NCBI GenBank assembly: GCA_011389765.1
Contig: JAABTT010000001.1
Coordinates: 62,001-126,000 of the forward strand
Origin: Desulfohalobiaceae bacterium S24
GTDB taxonomy: Bacteria; Desulfobacterota; Desulfovibrionia; Desulfovibrionales; Desulfothermaceae
DNA length: 64,000 nucleotides
Direction of reading: 5' to 3'
Shown: piece after piece, positions 20,643 through 46,232 of the stretch
How the letters are laid out: every line of letters starts with the position of its first letter
Numbering within the stretch: the first letter of the stretch is position 1
The notes under the pieces: generated by a model
Database searches by the model: none
Seen by the model: only the letters and a program-made list of their open reading frames with translations
Told to the model about the DNA's origin: nothing
Program-made: the position numbers and the translations under genes

Positions 20643-20672
20643 TTGACAATATGTTTTATTTTGTTCTATTAT
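20643..20672 (+). promoter_or_regulatory. Sigma-70 promoter placed for leaderless start
   Basis: TTGACA (20643-20648), an 18-base spacer and TATTAT (20667-20672) form a near-consensus promoter. Transcription would begin near 20679-20680, exactly at the ATG at 20680 of the activator gene, and there is no Shine-Dalgarno sequence. A leaderless message is therefore likely. The relict copy at 12575-12604 keeps the same arrangement. Confidence 0.65.
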
Positions 20673-20679
20673 GTTTAAT

Positions 20680-22059
20680 ATGTACAGTCCATTTGAAACG
20701 CCGCTTCCCTATCAACAACTGATCAACAGAATCCCGCAAAGTCTTGTCCTTCTTGACACACAGCAGCGGATTGTCTTTCTGAATCAGGCCATGGAGGCTT
20801 TGACCGGCTTTTCCCAGGAGGAGGCGGCGCAACTTCCCTGTTGCTTTGTCATCAGGAGCAGTCTTTGTGGTTTGCAATGCCCCCTCAAAAAGATGAATGT
20901 CCATTCCGAGCCCTTTTCTGTAGAAGGGGACATTATCAATAAACAACGCCAGAAAATTCCTGTTCGCCTGACCAGTGTGCCCTTGCTGGATGATCAGGAA
21001 AATCTCGCTGGCTGGCTGGAATGTTTTGACGACCTCCGCTCGATGCAGGAGGTTGCGGCCAGGAAGGCCGAGAATTTTGGACTGGGACCGCTGATCGGCA
21101 GCAGTCATGAGATGGAAAAGATTTTTGACTTGACCCTGGCAATCGCGGGAACCGATTCTTCGGTTTTGATCACTGGTGAAACCGGCACCGGCAAGGACGT
21201 TTTGGCCGAAGTCATTCACCAAGAATCTTCACGACAGCAAGGGCCTTTTATCAAGGTAAACTGCGGGGCTTTGCCTGAGACTCTCCTTGAATCCGAGCTT
21301 TTTGGCCACCATAAAGGGGCTTTTACCGGGGCCACGGAAAATAAGCCGGGACGCTTCAAACTTGCCCATAACGGCACGCTTTTCTTGACCGAGATCGGCG
21401 ATTTGCCGCATATCCTCCAGGTTAAGCTTTTGTCCTTTTTGGATGATCAGGTGATCTATCCCCTGGGAAGCACCAAAGGACTTCAGGTCAATGTTCGGGT
21501 CATTGCCGCTACCAATCGAAATCTCAATGCCATGGTCCGGGAAGGGCGTTTTCGAGAGGACCTCTATTATAGGCTGCATGTGGTCCAGGTCCATCTTCCT
21601 CCTCTGCGGGAGCGGGGAGCAGATATCGGGTCTTTGTTGGAACACTTTTTGCACACCTATATTGATAAATTTCAGAAAAAAATACAGGGCTTTTCTGCCG
21701 AAAGCCAACAGATCCTGATGGCCTATGCCTATCCGGGCAATGTGCGGGAGTTGAAAAATGTCGTGGAGTTTGCTGTGAATATCTGCGATGGGATCGAAGT
21801 CGAAGTCCGCCATCTGCCCGCGTATCTGAAGGACGCGCTATCCGGGGACCGCGACCATGATCTTCAAGTGGGGCCAGGCCCTGGACCAACTGAAGGGGGC
21901 AGGGCGCTCCGGCAGGAGACCTGGTCAGAAACTGAAAAAGAGATGATCCGCAGCGCCCTGGTTCGGAACAAGGGGAAAAAGCAAAAGGCGGCTGAGACTC
22001 TGGGCTGGGCGCGCAGTACGCTTTGGCGCAAAATGAAACAATACGGCTTGAGTGATTAG
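20680..22059 (+). CDS. PAS-containing sigma-54-dependent transcriptional activator
   Basis: A 459-residue enhancer-binding protein. Residues about 10-120 are a PAS domain (QSLVLLDTQQRIVFLNQAME) with several cysteines (PCCFVIRSSLCGLQC) that could sense redox or bind metal. The AAA+ domain has Walker A GETGTGKD, the sigma-54 contact motif GAFTGAT and [10 protein letters not shown] as Walker B region. The C-terminal Fis-type HTH ends GWARSTLWRKMKQYGL. There is no receiver domain, so input is through the PAS domain. It heads the intact signalling cluster. I prefer the ATG at 20680 because the first ATG (20671) overlaps the -10 element. Target promoters were not identified. Confidence 0.92.
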   Translation: MYSPFETPLPYQQLINRIPQSLVLLDTQQRIVFLNQAMEALTGFSQEEAAQLPCCFVIRSSLCGLQCPLKKMNVHSEPFSVEGDIINKQRQKIPVRLTSVPLLDDQENLAGWLECFDDLRSMQEVAARKAENFGLGPLIGSSHEMEKIFDLTLAIAGTDSSVLITGETGTGKDVLAEVIHQESSRQQGPFIKVNCGALPETLLESELFGHHKGAFTGATENKPGRFKLAHNGTLFLTEIGDLPHILQVKLLSFLDDQVIYPLGSTKGLQVNVRVIAATNRNLNAMVREGRFREDLYYRLHVVQVHLPPLRERGADIGSLLEHFLHTYIDKFQKKIQGFSAESQQILMAYAYPGNVRELKNVVEFAVNICDGIEVEVRHLPAYLKDALSGDRDHDLQVGPGPGPTEGGRALRQETWSETEKEMIRSALVRNKGKKQKAAETLGWARSTLWRKMKQYGLSD

Positions 22060-22139
22060 AACTTTTTGAAACTATTTGAGACAAGCCCAGGGCTGTGTTT
22101 TAGTGGCGGCACGGTCAGGGTTTACTGAAAAGGTTTGTG

Positions 22140-22532
22140 ATGTCGACTGTTCTCATTCCCATTCAGGGACACTATGTGGCCCCGCGTTTCGATCTTACTC
22201 CCGAAGTCTGGCTTGGCCGATATGATCAGCCGGACCGCGAGCCTCAGGGCAAGGTCCTGGTCTTGGCCCATCCTTCTGCGGATAAGGTCTGCCAGATGGT
22301 CTTGGATGAACGTGTTACCGTTGTCGTCTGCGGTGGTATCGAGGGCCAGTATTTCGAGTATCTGATATGGAAAAAGGTGGAGGTCTTTGATTCGGTCATC
22401 GGGAGCTACAAAAAAGCGGTCCAGGCTCTGGCCGAGGGCAGACTGCGATCGGAGATGATCTTCCGTGAAGATTTCGGACAGGAACAGGCGGGGGCCGGCG
22501 GACGCCATGGATACGACGCACAGAACCCCTGA
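22140..22532 (+). CDS. NifX/NifB-type (dinitrogenase FeMo-cofactor domain) protein in signalling cluster
   Basis: A 130-residue protein from the ATG at 22140 (AAAAGG upstream; the preceding in-frame GTG is less likely). It has the NifX-like layout: VLIPIQGHYVAPRFDLTPEV, then a strand-helix region, VTVVVCGGIEGQYFEYLIWK with the conserved Cys-Gly-Gly-Ile, and VFDSVIGSYKKAVQALAEG. Relatives bind iron-molybdenum cofactor precursors or other metal-sulfur clusters. No nitrogenase genes are nearby. It lies between a sigma-54 activator and a histidine kinase, which suggests a sensory or carrier role tied to this circuit. That role is inferred from context. Confidence 0.78.
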   Translation: MSTVLIPIQGHYVAPRFDLTPEVWLGRYDQPDREPQGKVLVLAHPSADKVCQMVLDERVTVVVCGGIEGQYFEYLIWKKVEVFDSVIGSYKKAVQALAEGRLRSEMIFREDFGQEQAGAGGRHGYDAQNP

Positions 22533-22563
22533 AAAAGGCCCAGGCAATGAGGATCGGAATCAT

Positions 22564-24276
22564 ATGAAGGCGAAGTACCTGACTACTCTTATTTCCCGGA
22601 TCCGAAAAGGAACAGGGGAGAACGGAAACCGGTATCAAAAACTTCGCATCCGGATTGCGGTGGGCATGTTCGTGGTCACCATCCTGCCTTTGAGCATCAT
22701 GCTGGTCATCAATCAGCATAATTTCCAGAAATCGCTCAAGCAGGAAACCGTATCCCAGCTTCGGACTTTGGCCTCGAAAACCAAACATTCCTTTGAGCTT
22801 TTTCTCCAGGAACGATTGAGTGCGGTGCGCTACATTGCACATGCCTACAACTTTGAGCAACTCAAAAGTCCTGACAAGCTTCAGGAGATATTTTATACGA
22901 TTCAGGAAAATTTTTCCGGCTTTGTCGATCTGGGCCTGATCAATCCGGAGGGTATCCAGATCAACTATATCGGCCCTTATGATCTTCTGGGCAAGGATTA
23001 TGCTCAAACCGATTCGTATCAAGGAGTTCAAGTGAGTGGCGACTGGATCAGCGAAGTCTTTCTTGGCTATCGCAAATTCCCGCATATTGTCATGGCAGTG
23101 GAACGTAGGCGGGCTTCCGGTCAAAACTGGATACTTCGTGCGTCCATCGATATCGACACCTTCAACGAAATACTCGGCGCCATGGGGCTGGACCCGGAAA
23201 GCGACGCGTTTTTGATCAATCAAAAAGGATTGCTGCAGACTCCATCCAAATTTTACGGAGAAATCTTGACCCCCGTTCCCCTGAGTGTTCCACCCAAAAC
23301 CATGCAGCCCTTCGTGCGTGAGACCGAAGACCGGCAGGGGCGGGAGATTTTTCTGACCTATGCCAATCTGGCCAACCAGAAGTTCATCCTGACCATCGTC
23401 AAACCCAAAGCGAGTTTTTACAAGTCCTGGTATGCGCTGAAAGGGCAGATGCTACTGGTGTTTTTGATCAGCGTGCTCTTGATCTCTCTCGTCATCTTCA
23501 GGTTGACCGGGCATATGGTCAGACAGATCAAAGATGCGGACGAGAAGCGAGAAATCGCCTTTCGTGAGCTGGAGCACAGCCACAAGTTGTCCTCCATCGG
23601 GCAGATGGCCGCCGGGGTGGCCCATGAGGTCAACAATCCACTGGCCATTATCAACGAAAAAACCGGCTTGATGCAGGATCTGCTGTTAGCTTCGCCGGAG
23701 ATGGAAAAACGCGATAAATTTTTGAGCCTGGCGGATTCGATTCTACAGTCTGTAGAACGAGCCCGGGGCATCACCTATCGTTTGCTTGGTTTCGCCAGAC
23801 GCCTGGAAAGCAGTTCGGAGGCTTTGGATGTGAATCAGGTCCTGAACAATGTCGTGGGTTTTATTCAGAAAGAGGCGGATGATCGCAACGTCTCCATCCA
23901 GCTGGACCTGCAGGAAAGCTTGGATCGGATTGTTTCAGATCAGGGGCAGTTGGAGCAGGTTTTTTTAAATATTCTCAACAATGCCCTGGCAGCTGTCGAA
24001 GACGAAGGCCGGATTGAAATTCAATCCTGGGAAGAATCGCCGGAAATGATAGCTGTCTCCATTGCGGACAACGGCTCTGGGATGTCCAAAGAAACAATGG
24101 ATCATATTTTTGAACCTTTTTTTACAACCAAAAAACAATTTGGAACAGGGCTTGGATTGTCCATTACCTATGGAATTGTGAAAAAATTGGGCGGCGAGAT
24201 CAAGGTTCAGAGCCAGATTGATGTCGGCAGCCGGTTTGTCATTTTCATACCGAAGCGGCAAAGTGTCAGGAGTTAG
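22564..24276 (+). CDS. Membrane histidine kinase with periplasmic dCache-like sensor
   Basis: From the ATG at 22564 the product has about 570 residues; a start at 22507 overlapping the previous gene is possible. A first helix (VGMFVVTILPLSIMLVI, about 33-49) is followed by a periplasmic sensor of about 240 residues resembling dCache domains (FSGFVDLGLINPEGIQINYI). The second helix is GQMLLVFLISVLLISLVIF. The dimerisation helix has AAGVAHEVNNPLAIINE with the phosphoacceptor histidine. The ATPase domain has NILNNALAAVED, DNGSGM and GTGLGLSITYG. It presumably phosphorylates the adjacent receiver at 24438 and perhaps others in the locus. Confidence 0.92.
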   Translation: MKAKYLTTLISRIRKGTGENGNRYQKLRIRIAVGMFVVTILPLSIMLVINQHNFQKSLKQETVSQLRTLASKTKHSFELFLQERLSAVRYIAHAYNFEQLKSPDKLQEIFYTIQENFSGFVDLGLINPEGIQINYIGPYDLLGKDYAQTDSYQGVQVSGDWISEVFLGYRKFPHIVMAVERRRASGQNWILRASIDIDTFNEILGAMGLDPESDAFLINQKGLLQTPSKFYGEILTPVPLSVPPKTMQPFVRETEDRQGREIFLTYANLANQKFILTIVKPKASFYKSWYALKGQMLLVFLISVLLISLVIFRLTGHMVRQIKDADEKREIAFRELEHSHKLSSIGQMAAGVAHEVNNPLAIINEKTGLMQDLLLASPEMEKRDKFLSLADSILQSVERARGITYRLLGFARRLESSSEALDVNQVLNNVVGFIQKEADDRNVSIQLDLQESLDRIVSDQGQLEQVFLNILNNALAAVEDEGRIEIQSWEESPEMIAVSIADNGSGMSKETMDHIFEPFFTTKKQFGTGLGLSITYGIVKKLGGEIKVQSQIDVGSRFVIFIPKRQSVRS

Positions 24277-24329: not shown

Positions 24330-24418
24330 GAAAATTTGAAACCGCAGTGTATTCGAATACATGAGGTATTTACAATTAGGCAATGACGAAGGAGATGGGT
24401 GCGTTTTCGGCCAATCAT
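24330..24418 (+). repeat. Dispersed palindromic repeat A, copy 2
   Basis: AAAATTTGAAACCGCAG followed by TGTATTCGAATACA (a perfect palindrome) and ATGAGG matches copy 1 at 928-1040, which has TGTATTTCAATACA at the same place. The following GCAATGACGAAGGAGATGGG also matches. It lies between the kinase and receiver genes. Confidence 0.78.
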
Positions 24419-24437
24419 GAGTGAGGAGGACGGTGGG

Positions 24438-24809
24438 ATGAAGGTATTGAAAATTTTGCTTGTTGATGATGAGCAGGAATTTGTGACTGCCCTGGCGGAG
24501 CGTTTGGAATTGCGGGGGTATGAGGTCAGGGCTGTCAACAGTGGCGAAGAGGCCTTGCAGGTCCTTGAAGCCGATGTGCCGCAGGCTGTGGTTCTGGATC
24601 TTAAAATGCCGGGTTTGAGCGGGCTTGAAGTTTTGAAGAGAATCAAGGAACAGTTTCAGTCCTTGCCTGTTCTGCTTTTGACGGGCTATGGCTCTACAAA
24701 AGACGGCATGAAAGGCATGCAGTTCGGGGCCTATGATTATTTGATGAAGCCTCTGAATATCGATGATCTCATTACGAAAGTTCATGAGGCGGTCAATGCC
24801 TCTCAATAA
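24438..24809 (+). CDS. Single-domain response regulator
   Basis: A 123-residue receiver from the ATG at 24438 behind GAGGACGGTGGG; earlier in-frame ATGs lie in the repeat. It has ILLVDDEQEF, the aspartate in AVVLDLKMPGLSGLEVL, LLLTGYGSTKDG with the switch Thr, and MKPLNIDDL with the lysine. There is no effector domain. It is the probable cognate partner of the upstream kinase and a paralogue of 13878-14252. Confidence 0.93.
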   Translation: MKVLKILLVDDEQEFVTALAERLELRGYEVRAVNSGEEALQVLEADVPQAVVLDLKMPGLSGLEVLKRIKEQFQSLPVLLLTGYGSTKDGMKGMQFGAYDYLMKPLNIDDLITKVHEAVNASQ

Positions 24810-24845: not shown

Positions 24846-25511
24846 ATGAGTAGTCGTCTTGAACGGATAGAAGTATTTTGGGGCCAACTCATGGCCGGAT
24901 ATACACATGAAATGAAAAACATTCTGGCAACCATCAATGAGTCCGGCGGTTTTATCGATGATATTTATAGGCTTCACAAACAGAATGATCCGGCCTATCA
25001 GAAAAAAATCCAAATATCTTTGGATATTATCCGCCAGCAAGTGGAACGGGGCGAATTGCTTTCCAGTCAGCTTAATGCCTTGGCCCACAGTCCGGATCAG
25101 GAGATAGGCTCGATTTCCCTTCAGGACACCGTGTCCGTGCTGGTGGGACTCTACGAGCGTTTTGCCAGGCGAAAAAAAGTGACCCTCAAGCTCGATGCGC
25201 CTTCGGAAGGATTGAGCATGACCACAAATCAAGTCCTCATGATGCATCTTGTTTTTGTGGCCTTGGAATGGACGCTTTCTGGATTCCAGTCAACAGGTGA
25301 AATCCTGATTCGTCCTCGGAAAGGCCATTCCGGATATTTGCTTGAAATTGTCTGCTCCGGAGAACATCTTTCCCATGATACCGCAGGCGAATATTGGAGC
25401 CTGATGCACGATTTGGGCGACAAACTGCAGACTGACTTGCAATGGGATGCATCCGGATCGGTCTTGAGTCTGGCCTTTCCCGTGGAGCTTTTCGGGCCTG
25501 CTTCCAGATAA
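24846..25511 (+). CDS. Histidine-kinase-like protein with degenerate ATPase domain
   Basis: A 221-residue soluble protein with no close named family. Near the N terminus AGYTHEMKNILATINESGGF resembles a kinase H-box, with His21 as possible phosphoacceptor. A helix follows with LDIIRQQVERGELLSSQLNA. The second half looks like a remnant of a HATPase domain: in the N-box position it has LMMHLVFVALEWTLSG rather than Asn-containing sequence, and there is no G1 or G2 glycine box. It could act as a phosphotransfer or scaffold protein for the neighbouring receiver. A strong terminator follows, so it closes this transcription unit. Confidence 0.65.
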   Translation: MSSRLERIEVFWGQLMAGYTHEMKNILATINESGGFIDDIYRLHKQNDPAYQKKIQISLDIIRQQVERGELLSSQLNALAHSPDQEIGSISLQDTVSVLVGLYERFARRKKVTLKLDAPSEGLSMTTNQVLMMHLVFVALEWTLSGFQSTGEILIRPRKGHSGYLLEIVCSGEHLSHDTAGEYWSLMHDLGDKLQTDLQWDASGSVLSLAFPVELFGPASR

Positions 25512-26351: not shown

Positions 26352-26546
26352 ATGAAAAATTTACTCGAAAAAATTGAAAACATTTTGGTGGCTGCCAGCT
26401 TTGCCGAGGCCAATGCCCATGATACTGCCAGAGAATATATGGGCGCGACACCGGCTCAAGGCAATATGGGCCGACAACTTCAGAACTTTTTGGAGGATAT
26501 CGGTCTGCAGGATGTTCCAGTAACCTATGGCATAGCCAGATTATAA
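26352..26546 (+). CDS. Small FAEA-motif protein
   Basis: A 64-residue protein from the ATG at 26352 with AGGAG upstream. Its first half, LLEKIENILVAASFAEANAH and DTAREYM, repeats almost exactly the C-terminal tail of the receiver encoded next and resembles the tail of the following pseudo-receiver. The second half (QLQNFLEDIGLQDVPVTYGI) is unlike them. There is no signal peptide or membrane helix. I do not recognise a named family. The shared helix suggests a docking or dimerisation element common to proteins of this locus. Confidence 0.7.
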   Translation: MKNLLEKIENILVAASFAEANAHDTAREYMGATPAQGNMGRQLQNFLEDIGLQDVPVTYGIARL

Positions 26547-26573
26547 TAAAAATCGAGACAATTGGAGGATACA

Positions 26574-27035
26574 ATGAGTGAGATCAAAGTGCTTTTAGTG
26601 GATGATGAAAAGGAGTTCGTCAATTCTCTGGCGGAACGTATTGAAATGCGGGATTTGGGCTCAAAGATCGCTTATGACGGAGAACAGGCCATGCGCCTGG
26701 TTCAAGACGAAATCCCTGATGTTGTGGTCCTCGATCTCAGAATGCCCGGCATTGATGGAATCGAGGTCCTGCGCCGGATGAAGAAACAGTATCCAAAGGT
26801 GCAGGTGATCGTCCTCACCGGCCATGGTTCCGAAAAAGACGAGCGAATGGCCAAGGAGCTCGGAGCTTTTGAGTATTTACAAAAACCAACGCCCATCGAG
26901 CAGCTGACCAAACTCATCAAACGGGCCTATAAAGAAAGAGTCGAAGACACCATGGTGGCGGCCACATTTGCTGAGGCCGGCGATGATGCAACCGCAAGGC
27001 AGACCTATGCCCGGAGTAAGAAAAGCAAAGATTAA
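26574..27035 (+). CDS. Response regulator with FAEA-motif tail
   Basis: A 153-residue protein from the ATG at 26574 behind GGAGG; the TTG reading 12 bases upstream includes that ribosome site. The receiver has VLLVDDEKEF, the aspartate in VVVLDLRMPGIDGIEVL, VIVLTGHGSEKDE and the lysine in YLQKPTPIEQL. After about residue 120 comes the tail ERVEDTMVAATFAEAGDD with ATAR, shared with the neighbouring small protein. No DNA-binding domain. It probably works through protein contacts mediated by the tail. Confidence 0.9.
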   Translation: MSEIKVLLVDDEKEFVNSLAERIEMRDLGSKIAYDGEQAMRLVQDEIPDVVVLDLRMPGIDGIEVLRRMKKQYPKVQVIVLTGHGSEKDERMAKELGAFEYLQKPTPIEQLTKLIKRAYKERVEDTMVAATFAEAGDDATARQTYARSKKSKD

Positions 27036-27065
27036 AAAGCCTTTCTGCATATCAGGAGCCGGCAG

Positions 27066-27629
27066 GTGTCGATTTCAGTAGTGATTGTCTGCTTTGCCGA
27101 AGTTTTCCAGGACTACTTGAAGTCTCATTTCAAGGAGAAAGAGTGTCGGATCAGAGAAGCGGGAACAATTTCCGAGATCATGGAGTGCGCCGCCGCTGAA
27201 GCCCTGGACGTCCTTCTCCTGGATTTGACTGAAGAACGGCAGCGTGGTCTGGAAATTATCCGGCAGATTCACGCCAATTATTCACAGATCCCAATTGTGG
27301 TCGTGGTCCGTAAGGATGATGTTCAAACCTCCATTGCCGCGATGAACTCAGGGGCGTATGATGAGCTGTCCGATCCATTTGACTGGAATGTTCTGGATTC
27401 AAAAATTGAAGCGGCCTTCCAGGAAAAAGTACGAAAGGAAAAAGCAGCACAAAAGGTTGGTTTTTTTCAAAAAATCGAAGATTACTTTGCAGCTGCAGCT
27501 TTGGCGGAGCAGAGATCGCCGGAAATGGCCAGAAAGATAATCGCGGTTGGGAAGACGGGCAGAAGGCCCAGCGGAGACTTTGCGCCTTCTCTGCCAAAAT
27601 CGAAAAAGAGTCGCAGGAGAGATAAATGA
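27066..27629 (+). CDS. Degenerate receiver (pseudo-receiver) with FAEA-like tail
   Basis: A 187-residue protein from a GTG at 27066 with AGGAG upstream. The fold is receiver-like: the aspartate position is kept (VLLLDLTEERQRGLEIIRQI), but the acidic pair is replaced (VVIVCFAEVF) and the conserved lysine region reads DELSDPFDW, without lysine. Phosphorylation is therefore doubtful. The tail has FFQKIEDYFAAAALAEQRSP and EMAR, related to the FAEA motif of the two genes before it, and ends in a basic stretch (KSKKSRRRDK). It overlaps the CBS gene by four bases. Confidence 0.78.
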   Translation: MSISVVIVCFAEVFQDYLKSHFKEKECRIREAGTISEIMECAAAEALDVLLLDLTEERQRGLEIIRQIHANYSQIPIVVVVRKDDVQTSIAAMNSGAYDELSDPFDWNVLDSKIEAAFQEKVRKEKAAQKVGFFQKIEDYFAAAALAEQRSPEMARKIIAVGKTGRRPSGDFAPSLPKSKKSRRRDK

Positions 27630-28204: not shown

Positions 28205-28243
28205 TAGTTGGAAGTTCCAGTTTATCAGGGAGAGGAGGCAAGC

Positions 28244-28687
28244 ATGAAGATACGCGTGTTATTGGTGGATGATGAACAGCAGTTCCTTGATCAACTCGCA
28301 GAGCGCTTGAAGATCCGGGAGTATGATGTAAGCACCTGCCTGAGCGGAGAGGAGGCTCTGGAAAAAGTCAGGAAGTACAACTTCGATGTGTGCATTCTGG
28401 ATGTGGCCATGCCCGGCCTGGACGGCATCGAAACCCTCAGAGAGATCAAACGCCTCAAACCCTTGATCGAAGTCATCATGCTCACCGGCCATGCCACGGT
28501 CGAGTCCGCGATAGAAGGAATGAAGCTCGGGGCCTTTGATTATCTTCTCAAGCCCACCCAAACTGACGATCTCGTAATTAAGGTTGAAACGGCAAACAAG
28601 CGAAAGGCCGAGCAGGAAGAGCGGATTCGCCAGGCCAAAGTCAAAGAGATCGTTTTGTCACCCAGGTCGGTTCTATCGAAGGAATAA
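28244..28687 (+). CDS. Single-domain response regulator
   Basis: A 147-residue receiver from the ATG at 28244 behind GAGAGGAGG; 12 earlier codons are not supported. It has VLLVDDEQQF, the aspartate in VCILDVAMPGLDGIETL, VIMLTGHATVESAIEG and the lysine in YLLKPTQTDDL. The tail ANKRKAEQEERIRQAKVKEI is a charged helix and resembles that of the receiver after the carrier gene. No output domain. Confidence 0.92.
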   Translation: MKIRVLLVDDEQQFLDQLAERLKIREYDVSTCLSGEEALEKVRKYNFDVCILDVAMPGLDGIETLREIKRLKPLIEVIMLTGHATVESAIEGMKLGAFDYLLKPTQTDDLVIKVETANKRKAEQEERIRQAKVKEIVLSPRSVLSKE

Positions 28688-28788: not shown

Positions 28789-30399
28789 ATGCATCACGAA
28801 AATGAAATTTCACAAAATGGCGGTCTGTTGTCCAATAAGACTTTTTGGCTCTGTATCGGGGCAGGGGTATTTTTTCTGATCGCCTTTATTCTGCCGACTC
28901 CGGAAAGTCTGGTTGTGGTGGTTCAGGAGAATGGATTTGCGCAGCAGATGATCGATTGGGGGGTGGCCTCAAATGCCCTGGAGGCCGCGGACAAGACCAT
29001 GATCGTCTTAGGGATCATCCCCATGGCGGTCATTTTTTTTGCCACCGAAGCCATCCCCATCGGCTTGACCGGCTTGCTCATGCCCATGCTGGCCTATTTT
29101 CTGGAACTGATGCCGAAACAGATGATCGGCAAGACTTTTGCCGGGGATGCGCCCATGTTTCTGCTCGGTGTTCTGGCCATGGGCGTGGTCGTGGTGGAGG
29201 TCGGCCTGCACAAGCGTCTGGCCACCTGGATTCTGGGTTGGACCAAAGGTTTTCTCCTGCCCATTTTTGTTCTGTCCATCAGTATGGCCGTTATCGGATC
29301 CTTTATATCGGCCCATGCCATGTGCGCTTTTATGACCCCGGTCATGATGGCGGTCTATTACGGGGCCGTGGCCGCCAACAGCCCAAACGGCGAAATCCGG
29401 CATGATCCGGCATTGGCCAAATTTCTGCTCTTCACCCTGTGTTACGCCCTCAATGTCGGCGGGGTCGGCTCTCCGGCGGCCGGAGGACGGAACGTGATCA
29501 TGATGGGCTTTTGGAGCGGGTATGATGTCCCCATGGATTTTTTCACCTGGATGAAATACGGCTTCCCCATGGTCCCGGTTTTAGGCTTGATGGTGGCCGT
29601 GTATATGGTCTTTTTCTTTTCCAAAAAAATCAAAACCCGTGACTTGACGCCCGGTCTTGCGGCCATCAAGGAGGAGACCAGGCGTATGGGTAGGATGAAA
29701 TACGGCGAATTCGTCGCCCTGGGCATGCTTATCCTCATCCTGGGGCTCTGGATCTTCGGTGGTCACGGCCTGGGACTCGGCGGCCCTGCCTTGTTGGCTC
29801 TTTTGATTCCGGTGATTTTCCGGATCACCGCCTGGCAGAAAATCCTCCAGGGCGTCTCCTGGGACGCCTGGTTCATGTACTGCGGGGCCCTGACCATGGG
29901 CGCTCTGCTCAAGGACAGCGGCGCGGCCCTCTGGCTGGCCCAATCCGTGATGAAGTTTTTGACCCTGGCCCATATGGATGAAGGCTTCGGCCTCTGGGTC
30001 GGGCTGTCCGCATTTTCCGGGCTGATGACCAACTTCATGTCCGATGCCGGGACAACGGCCCTCTTGGGTCCCATCGTCATCCCCATCGGGATCATGTCCG
30101 GCCATGTGGGCGAGCCCTGGGCCTCGGGAATGGCCGTGGCCTTTGCCACCTCCTTTGCCCATTTCCTGATTGTAGGTACCCCGAACAACGCCATTGTTTA
30201 TGGTCTGGGCACCTATCCGGATACCGGGGAGCGGGCCATCAAACCCATTGATTTTCTGAAATACGGTTTTCTGCTCTGGGTGTTGTCCATGCTCGTGGTC
30301 TGGGTTGTCGGCTTTTTGGGGACGTTCTGTCTGCTCGGTTTTCCCGAGGGGATACTGGAGACAGCCAAGACAGTACTGGAGAGCGGGGCAGCTGACTGA
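28789..30399 (+). CDS. DASS/SLC13-family anion:sodium symporter
   Basis: A 536-residue membrane protein with about 12 helices, start ATG at 28789 behind GGAGG. It has the two substrate-site signatures of the divalent anion/sodium symporters: ALNVGGVGSPAAGGRNVIMM in the first half and FAHFLIVGTPNNAIVYGLGT in the second, plus NFMSDAGTTALLGPIVIPIG. Likely substrates are dicarboxylates, tricarboxylates or sulfate; sequence alone does not decide. It lies between two single-domain receivers and after a CBS protein, which suggests the circuit senses or controls uptake of this anion. Confidence 0.9.
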   Translation: MHHENEISQNGGLLSNKTFWLCIGAGVFFLIAFILPTPESLVVVVQENGFAQQMIDWGVASNALEAADKTMIVLGIIPMAVIFFATEAIPIGLTGLLMPMLAYFLELMPKQMIGKTFAGDAPMFLLGVLAMGVVVVEVGLHKRLATWILGWTKGFLLPIFVLSISMAVIGSFISAHAMCAFMTPVMMAVYYGAVAANSPNGEIRHDPALAKFLLFTLCYALNVGGVGSPAAGGRNVIMMGFWSGYDVPMDFFTWMKYGFPMVPVLGLMVAVYMVFFFSKKIKTRDLTPGLAAIKEETRRMGRMKYGEFVALGMLILILGLWIFGGHGLGLGGPALLALLIPVIFRITAWQKILQGVSWDAWFMYCGALTMGALLKDSGAALWLAQSVMKFLTLAHMDEGFGLWVGLSAFSGLMTNFMSDAGTTALLGPIVIPIGIMSGHVGEPWASGMAVAFATSFAHFLIVGTPNNAIVYGLGTYPDTGERAIKPIDFLKYGFLLWVLSMLVVWVVGFLGTFCLLGFPEGILETAKTVLESGAAD

Positions 30400-30427: not shown

Positions 30428-30859
30428 ATGAATCCCTATATTCTTTTAGTCGATGATGAAGTGCAGTTTGTCGAAACCATGCAGAAGCGACTGGTCAAGA
30501 AAGGCTTGAAAGTTGCCGCCGCTTTGAGCGGTTCAGAAGCTCTGGACGTGCTCGGTAAGCACCGGAATATCGACGTGGTGATCCTGGACGTCAAGATGCC
30601 CGGCATGGATGGGCTTGAAACCCTACAGGAGATCAAAAAGAGGCTCCCCCTGGTGGAAGTGATCATGCTGACCGGACATGCCACAGTGGAATCCGCTGTG
30701 CAGGGCATGAAGCTCGGGGCCTATGATTACCTGATGAAGCCCTGCGATCAGGAGGAATTGCTGGACAAGGTCCATGAGGCGGTGGGGGTCAAACGCAACA
30801 GAGAAGAAAAGATTCGTGAAGCCGCGGTCAAAAATGCCTTATCCGGCTTTCAGGATTAA
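30428..30859 (+). CDS. Single-domain response regulator
   Basis: A 143-residue receiver with ILLVDDEVQF, the aspartate in VVILDVKMPGMDGLETL, VIMLTGHATVESAVQG and the lysine in YLMKPCDQEEL. The C-terminal helix (KRNREEKIREAAVKNAL) resembles that of the receiver at 28244. AAGGAG precedes the ATG. It is followed by a truncated sensor gene, so a kinase partner may have been lost here. Confidence 0.92.
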   Translation: MNPYILLVDDEVQFVETMQKRLVKKGLKVAAALSGSEALDVLGKHRNIDVVILDVKMPGMDGLETLQEIKKRLPLVEVIMLTGHATVESAVQGMKLGAYDYLMKPCDQEELLDKVHEAVGVKRNREEKIREAAVKNALSGFQD

Positions 30860-46111: not shown

Positions 46112-46232
46112 CGAGTCCTCCTGTCACAATTTAGCAAGAGTCGTGCCAGAGCCTGGAAATCTGGACGTATTTGCGGCTGCCCAGCGTGACGGGGTCCATA
46201 GAGTTGTGCAGCTGCGACCCTTCAGGACGTTC

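Follow-up and report, generated by a model that had tools for sequence, protein, structure and literature searches.

A ~30-residue FAEA module shared by receiver, stress-type and membrane proteins encoded with anion transporters, and its possible role in docking

We describe a module of ~30 residues, the FAEA module, that is common to three consecutive + strand genes (26352-26546, 26574-27035 and 27066-27629) of the DNA stretch analysed here (64,000 nucleotides from Desulfohalobiaceae bacterium S24, hereafter the window), and that recurs in many other genomes on receivers, universal-stress (Usp)-type proteins, membrane proteins and small proteins of little else. The same short module is found on several proteins of one operon, whether free, in tandem or membrane-fused, and docking is therefore the best explanation of its occurrence. 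From gene linkage and protein architecture, we lean towards the reading that the module brings two-component, stress-type and membrane proteins together at anion transporters by homotypic stacking of hairpins, and that transporter control would follow from this assembly. The original prediction, which regarded the shared segment as a possible docking helix holding a signalling complex together, is partly supported, and the system seems to be one that deals with anion transporters.

The window carries a cluster of the receiver type, which consists of genes for a sigma-54 activator, a NifX-like protein, a kinase, a receiver, a kinase-like protein, a small module protein, one or two module receivers, a CBS protein and an SLC13 transporter. 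The features of this cluster are the following.

20671-22059, + strand: PAS sigma-54 activator, upstream; recurrent in receiver-type clusters
22137-22532, + strand: NifX-like small protein (family C10), recurrent in receiver-type clusters; Nitro_FeMo-Co E 3.9e-4, under the cut-off
22465-24276, + strand: dCache-type sensor histidine kinase; HATPase_c 1.2e-24, dCache_1 1.9e-11 (just below its cut-off)
24399-24809, + strand: receiver-only protein
24846-25511, + strand: kinase-like protein with a HisKA-like THEMKN box and a degenerate ATPase part
26352-26546, + strand: stand-alone FAEA protein, 64 aa; orthologues 70% identical in the genus and 34-50% in other relatives
26361-26444, + strand: FAEA module of the stand-alone protein, residues 4-31, KIENILVAASFAEANAHDTAR; profile match 52.2 bits
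26487-26543, + strand: C-terminal tail of the stand-alone protein, FLEDIGLQDVPVTYGIARL, conserved in the alignment and typical of receiver-type clusters
26574-27035, + strand: receiver with C-terminal FAEA module, 153 aa from the ATG; Response_reg E 2.7e-28
26925-27008, + strand: FAEA module of the first receiver, residues 118-145, RVEDTMVAATFAEAGDDATAR; profile match 45.9 bits
27066-27629, + strand: atypical receiver with FAEA module and basic tail, 187 aa; Response_reg E 5.8e-14
27459-27545, + strand: FAEA module variant of the atypical receiver, residues 132-160, KIEDYFAAAALAEQRSPEMAR; profile match 44.1 bits
27626-28204, + strand: CBS-domain protein, recurrent in receiver-type clusters; start overlaps the preceding stop
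28208-28687, + strand: receiver-only protein without the module, ATG at ~28244
28789-30399, + strand: SLC13/DASS-type anion transporter; CitMHS 2.9e-30, Na_sulph_symp 2.7e-29
30428-30859, + strand: receiver-only protein

Gaps of 27 and 30 bp separate the three module genes, and the last of them overlaps the CBS gene by 4 bp. The phospho-acceptor site of the first receiver is intact (DD, D54, T82 and K104 conserved); in the atypical receiver, the active-site acidic pair, Thr and Lys are not conserved, as read by eye. A promoter scan found no sigma-54 promoter above chance immediately 5' of the small gene, and a sigma-70 promoter scan performed no better than on shuffles. The sole exact sigma-54 consensus (TGGCAC-N5-TTGCW) within the window lies at 46133-46148 on the - strand. 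The small proteins of receiver-type clusters carry a second motif at the C-terminus, FLExVGLxxVxVxYGIAxL (26487-26543 in the window), which is duplicated in loci L066 and L067. In L066 (7067-8572), a transposase-like sequence reads in frame into a gene with two module copies.

The segment reported for three consecutive proteins of the window proved to be real. A profile made from the sequences of other genera, with the copies of the window and of its own genus excluded, scored 54.5 bits in the 64-aa protein, 43.5 bits in the first receiver and 24.1 bits in the atypical receiver (E values of 6e-15, 2e-11 and 2e-5, respectively, for 20,000 sequences), against a top score of 10.4 bits among 9655 shuffled proteins. 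The consensus given in the original prediction fits the first two proteins exactly, and the third copy, bearing LAEQ where the others have FAEA, is a genuine but weaker variant, as had been claimed. Pairwise identity among the three copies is only 30-40%. The module was also correctly assigned to the N-terminal half of the 64-residue protein. Its placement at the tail of both receiver-type proteins holds for the first receiver; in the atypical receiver a basic tail of 27 residues follows the module, and the third copy is therefore not at the extreme C-terminus. Profile searches elsewhere recovered strictly linked, co-directional genes, contrary to the outcome that would have refuted the original prediction. 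A chance amphipathic helix is ruled out by this strict linkage together with the specificity of the profile against shuffles.

A scan of 84,980 species found the module in Nitrospirota and Desulfobacterota-type MAGs, with a few other carriers from Latescibacterota and Melioribacteraceae, one Deferribacteres and one Thiotrichaceae. Carriers amounted to 53 of the 395 genomes of Desulfobacterota, the phylum of the window (search with the 30-residue profile), 47 of the 148 genomes in the phylum of a Nitrospirae MAG locus (L121) and 12 of the 299 in that of a Thiotrichaceae MAG locus (L144). Among Desulfobacterota, dsrA was present in 50 of the 53 carriers versus 140 of 342 non-carriers (Fisher p 1.5e-14, genomes being counted as independent despite their kinship). 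We gathered 272 distinct module proteins from 141 loci, which were drawn from many MAGs, with a few overlaps among them and with mechanical gene calls. They comprise ~95 small proteins, 56 receivers, 11 TM11-type membrane proteins and 108 proteins of 126-300 aa that are mostly Usp-type, albeit size classes partly replace annotation here and the Usp-type takes in a small number of long tandem proteins. A Pfam Usp match (E <=0.01) was obtained for 24 of 48 sampled Usp-type hosts, and no match for the remainder.

The position of the module depends on the host. In receivers it is invariably C-terminal, after receiver alpha5; in Usp-type hosts it is N-terminal or internal; and in the membrane hosts (the 80-130 aa TM11 proteins, which are encoded beside TauE, plus one other membrane protein) it is N-terminal. 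Stand-alone module proteins of 50-125 aa bear one or two copies, and longer ones up to five (L109). As the position varies by host and the module also occurs alone or as two to five tandem copies, it is a transferable module rather than a family-specific tail. The association with receivers put forward in the original prediction is borne out by 56 of them and extends further, to Usp-type, membrane and tandem-repeat proteins. The C-termini of TM11 proteins in five loci (L072, L096, L097, L115 and L198) show an RPRPRLR-like tail resembling the Arg/Pro tails of small proteins in Usp-type clusters.

Structure prediction gives the module as a helix-turn-helix hairpin, which describes it better than the 'helix' first proposed, albeit the segment is indeed helical by model. 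Residue frequencies across 296 modules are high at A15 (96%), F18 (88%), A19 (98%), E20 (92%), G22 (85%) and A27 (93%), and the first helix bears a wide arc of hydrophobic or small residues. In an AlphaFold2 model of the receiver, alpha5 and the first module helix form one helix (108-134), and a second helix (138-150) follows after a turn; confidence in the module part is modest, with pLDDT ~74 dropping to 53. The model of a two-copy small protein contains two hairpins (H2-19/H23-30 and H41-52/H56-62), and the conserved tail takes the form of a short helix. The mean pLDDT is 76.8 and the pTM 0.49, and the packing between the hairpins is not fixed by the model. Receivers and Usp proteins commonly dimerise, and the unbroken passage from alpha5 into the module in the receiver model would suit an oligomerisation helix that only self-dimerises each host, as an extension of receiver alpha5 and of the Usp dimer. 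We regard this as improbable, for it leaves unexplained the 50-65 aa proteins of little but module, the tandem arrays and the strict co-occurrence in adjacent genes.

Neither Pfam, NCBIfam nor the PDB sequences hold a curated entry that covers the module, in agreement with the original remark, in which it was not recognised as a named domain. Searching the PDB by fold yielded nothing significant (best E 1.7), and several of the weak matches were TPR proteins. The module and the TPR share the spacing of a small residue, an aromatic residue at +3, Gly at +4 and Ala at +5, corresponding to TPR positions 8, 11, 15 and 20, as well as the helix-turn-helix form (predicted for the module). They may also share a tandem period of ~34 (mostly 31-36, mode 34, in tandem copies). 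They differ in that the module is usually single-copy, has a strongly fixed FAEAG(E/D) core and occurs in anion-transporter signalling operons. A designed-TPR sequence among the PDB sequences can be aligned with the module, and one of 16 small proteins gave a TPR match at E 0.0045. Nevertheless, no sampled protein reached a TPR gathering cut-off (e.g., 13.5 vs 26.3 and 14.2 vs 27), the best scores per protein being about half of the cut-off, and for this reason we do not class the module as a TPR. The TPR is a protein-protein interaction unit, and we propose the same role for the module, which, judging from the models and the residue pattern, may work like a TPR-type hairpin. The residue spacing, the 34-residue tandem period and the weak scores for TPR_4, TPR_6 and TPR_12 would also fit an ordinary TPR fragment, a single unit gained repeatedly for generic peptide binding with no special system behind it. 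Besides the unmet gathering scores, the strong fixation of FAE (88/98/92%) and a linkage to operons and transporters that is unlike the scattered use of TPRs speak against such a fragment, and we give it little credence.

All 129 pairs of neighbouring module genes are co-directional and 120 of them lie <300 bp apart, kinship of genomes being ignored in these counts. Besides the receiver-type cluster, a Usp-type cluster was recognised, in which a small module protein and one or two module Usp proteins occur with SLC13, or with a membrane protein, TauE and Usp, along with a kinase and a sigma-54 regulator. Typical and atypical receivers with the module form adjacent pairs, and the gene set is kept while its order is swapped between lineages. 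Of 42 clusters in 20 genomes, 29 lie no more than 6 kb from a TauE/SafE or SLC13 (CitMHS-type) transporter gene, compared with 1.4 expected from the background density found by searching 20 genomes; these clusters were hand-picked from the list of module matches, and a few of them share a contig. In Pseudomonadota, some clusters lie next to SulP permease genes, accompanied in L205 by DabA and DabB, which makes anion transport, and not sulfate alone, the shared theme. In L203-L206, all from Pseudomonadota, large neighbouring genes are sized and ordered like SulP and DabB/DabA, with Pfam identification in L205 only.

A separate small module protein was lacking for 8 of 13 TM11 proteins with a fused module vs 5 of 23 TM11 proteins without one (Fisher p 0.03), as would be expected if fused and separate partners can replace each other. 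Five Desulfovibrionales loci (L068, L094, L110, L111 and L113) contain a receiver with the module and no adjacent stand-alone partner. More generally, a module neighbour within 3 kb was absent for 17 of 57 module genes of receivers and for 26 of 112 of Usp-type proteins, with some contigs ending early. These gaps count against docking, as do the low identity among the three copies of the window, the modest confidence of the models and the outcome of the fold search. No strict match between the number of small-protein copies and that of module receivers was seen, the respective counts being 1 and 2 (the window and L104), 2 and 2 (L062) and 2 and 1 (L084).

If the module does work like a TPR-type hairpin, a lone copy would not be self-sufficient and would rely on others to stack against. 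This points to assembly in trans. Each partner protein would supply one hairpin, the hairpins of several partners would stack into a single helical array, and the stand-alone or tandem-copy protein would serve as the scaffold. Signalling outputs, i.e., receiver phosphorylation state and nucleotide- or CBS-type sensing, would then be gathered beside the SLC13, TauE/SafE or SulP transporter, and the two-component system could tune transporter activity as well as expression; gene linkage is what points to a direct action on the transporter. In its most specific form, it is attractive to speculate that the system is a split-TPR scaffold, in which single hairpins of the operon proteins assemble in trans around the tiny stand-alone or tandem protein and couple receivers and Usp-type sensors directly to SLC13, TauE/SafE and SulP in sulfur-cycling bacteria. 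We put this forward tentatively, as less probable than the general docking role.

Alternatively, the module may be a recognition tag for one shared partner (a kinase-like protein, a membrane protein or the transporter) that does not bind itself, with the stand-alone proteins acting as competitors or adaptors for the same site. Some operons with a single module protein (L094, L110 and L113) fit this idea, as does a module-less kinase-like protein of ~230 aa that often precedes the module genes in receiver-type clusters, and the conservation of E20 and A15/F18/A19 hints at a specific surface. Nevertheless, no single non-module family is present in all clusters, since what receiver-type clusters have in common with Usp-type ones is limited to generic genes of unrelated families (kinase, sigma-54 regulator and transporter), and stacking accounts equally well for the tandem copies and fusions. 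We therefore hold a common receptor to be rather unlikely, albeit a more serious contender than dimerisation or an ordinary TPR fragment, and retain docking by homotypic stacking as the preferred reading.

Little is known about how sulfate reducers sense and regulate their uptake of sulfate and other oxyanions. One module tagging the regulatory partners of the candidate SLC13 and TauE/SafE transporters in Desulfobacterota, Nitrospirota and some Pseudomonadota offers an entry point to the system as a whole, assigns to a family many proteins of 50-70 aa that otherwise have no match, and makes a concrete assembly model testable. A search of the available literature with the motif string FAEAGE returned no paper. 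The module family is undescribed and its kind is known. Short docking modules, such as those of cohesin-dockerin and the docking helices of polyketide synthases, serve other multi-protein systems. The likeness lies in one short module on several operon partners plus a stand-alone adaptor or scaffold, and no sequence relation is claimed; the difference is that the FAEA module would join receivers, stress-type and membrane proteins.

Loci of a similar kind are on record in Desulfovibrio. SLC13 and TauE/SafE transporters have been surveyed, their substrates and regulation being for the most part unsettled (PMC5840216, PMC4641369), and nine sigma-54-dependent operons of D. vulgaris are listed there as encoding TSUP- or PSE-family transporters with no substrate data (PMC4641369). 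The available parts of the accounts of these transporters and of the D. vulgaris and D. alaskensis G20 loci below make no mention of the module. In D. vulgaris, DVU0539-0545 encode a kinase, a regulator, two universal stress proteins, a PSE-family transporter and a 133-aa membrane protein, and show genetic phenotypes under molybdate, an oxyanion stress (PMC10102598). Compared by gene set only, this locus is like the FAEA clusters in kind and differs from them in transporter family. Likewise, the nitrate-resistance locus of D. alaskensis G20 and D. vulgaris comprises TauE, a conserved protein, a kinase, a receiver and PPDK (PMC4001038), and the FAEA clusters L098, L116 and L120 adjoin a similar module of TauE, a ~228-aa protein and a PPDK-like protein, a likeness in gene order and annotation only.
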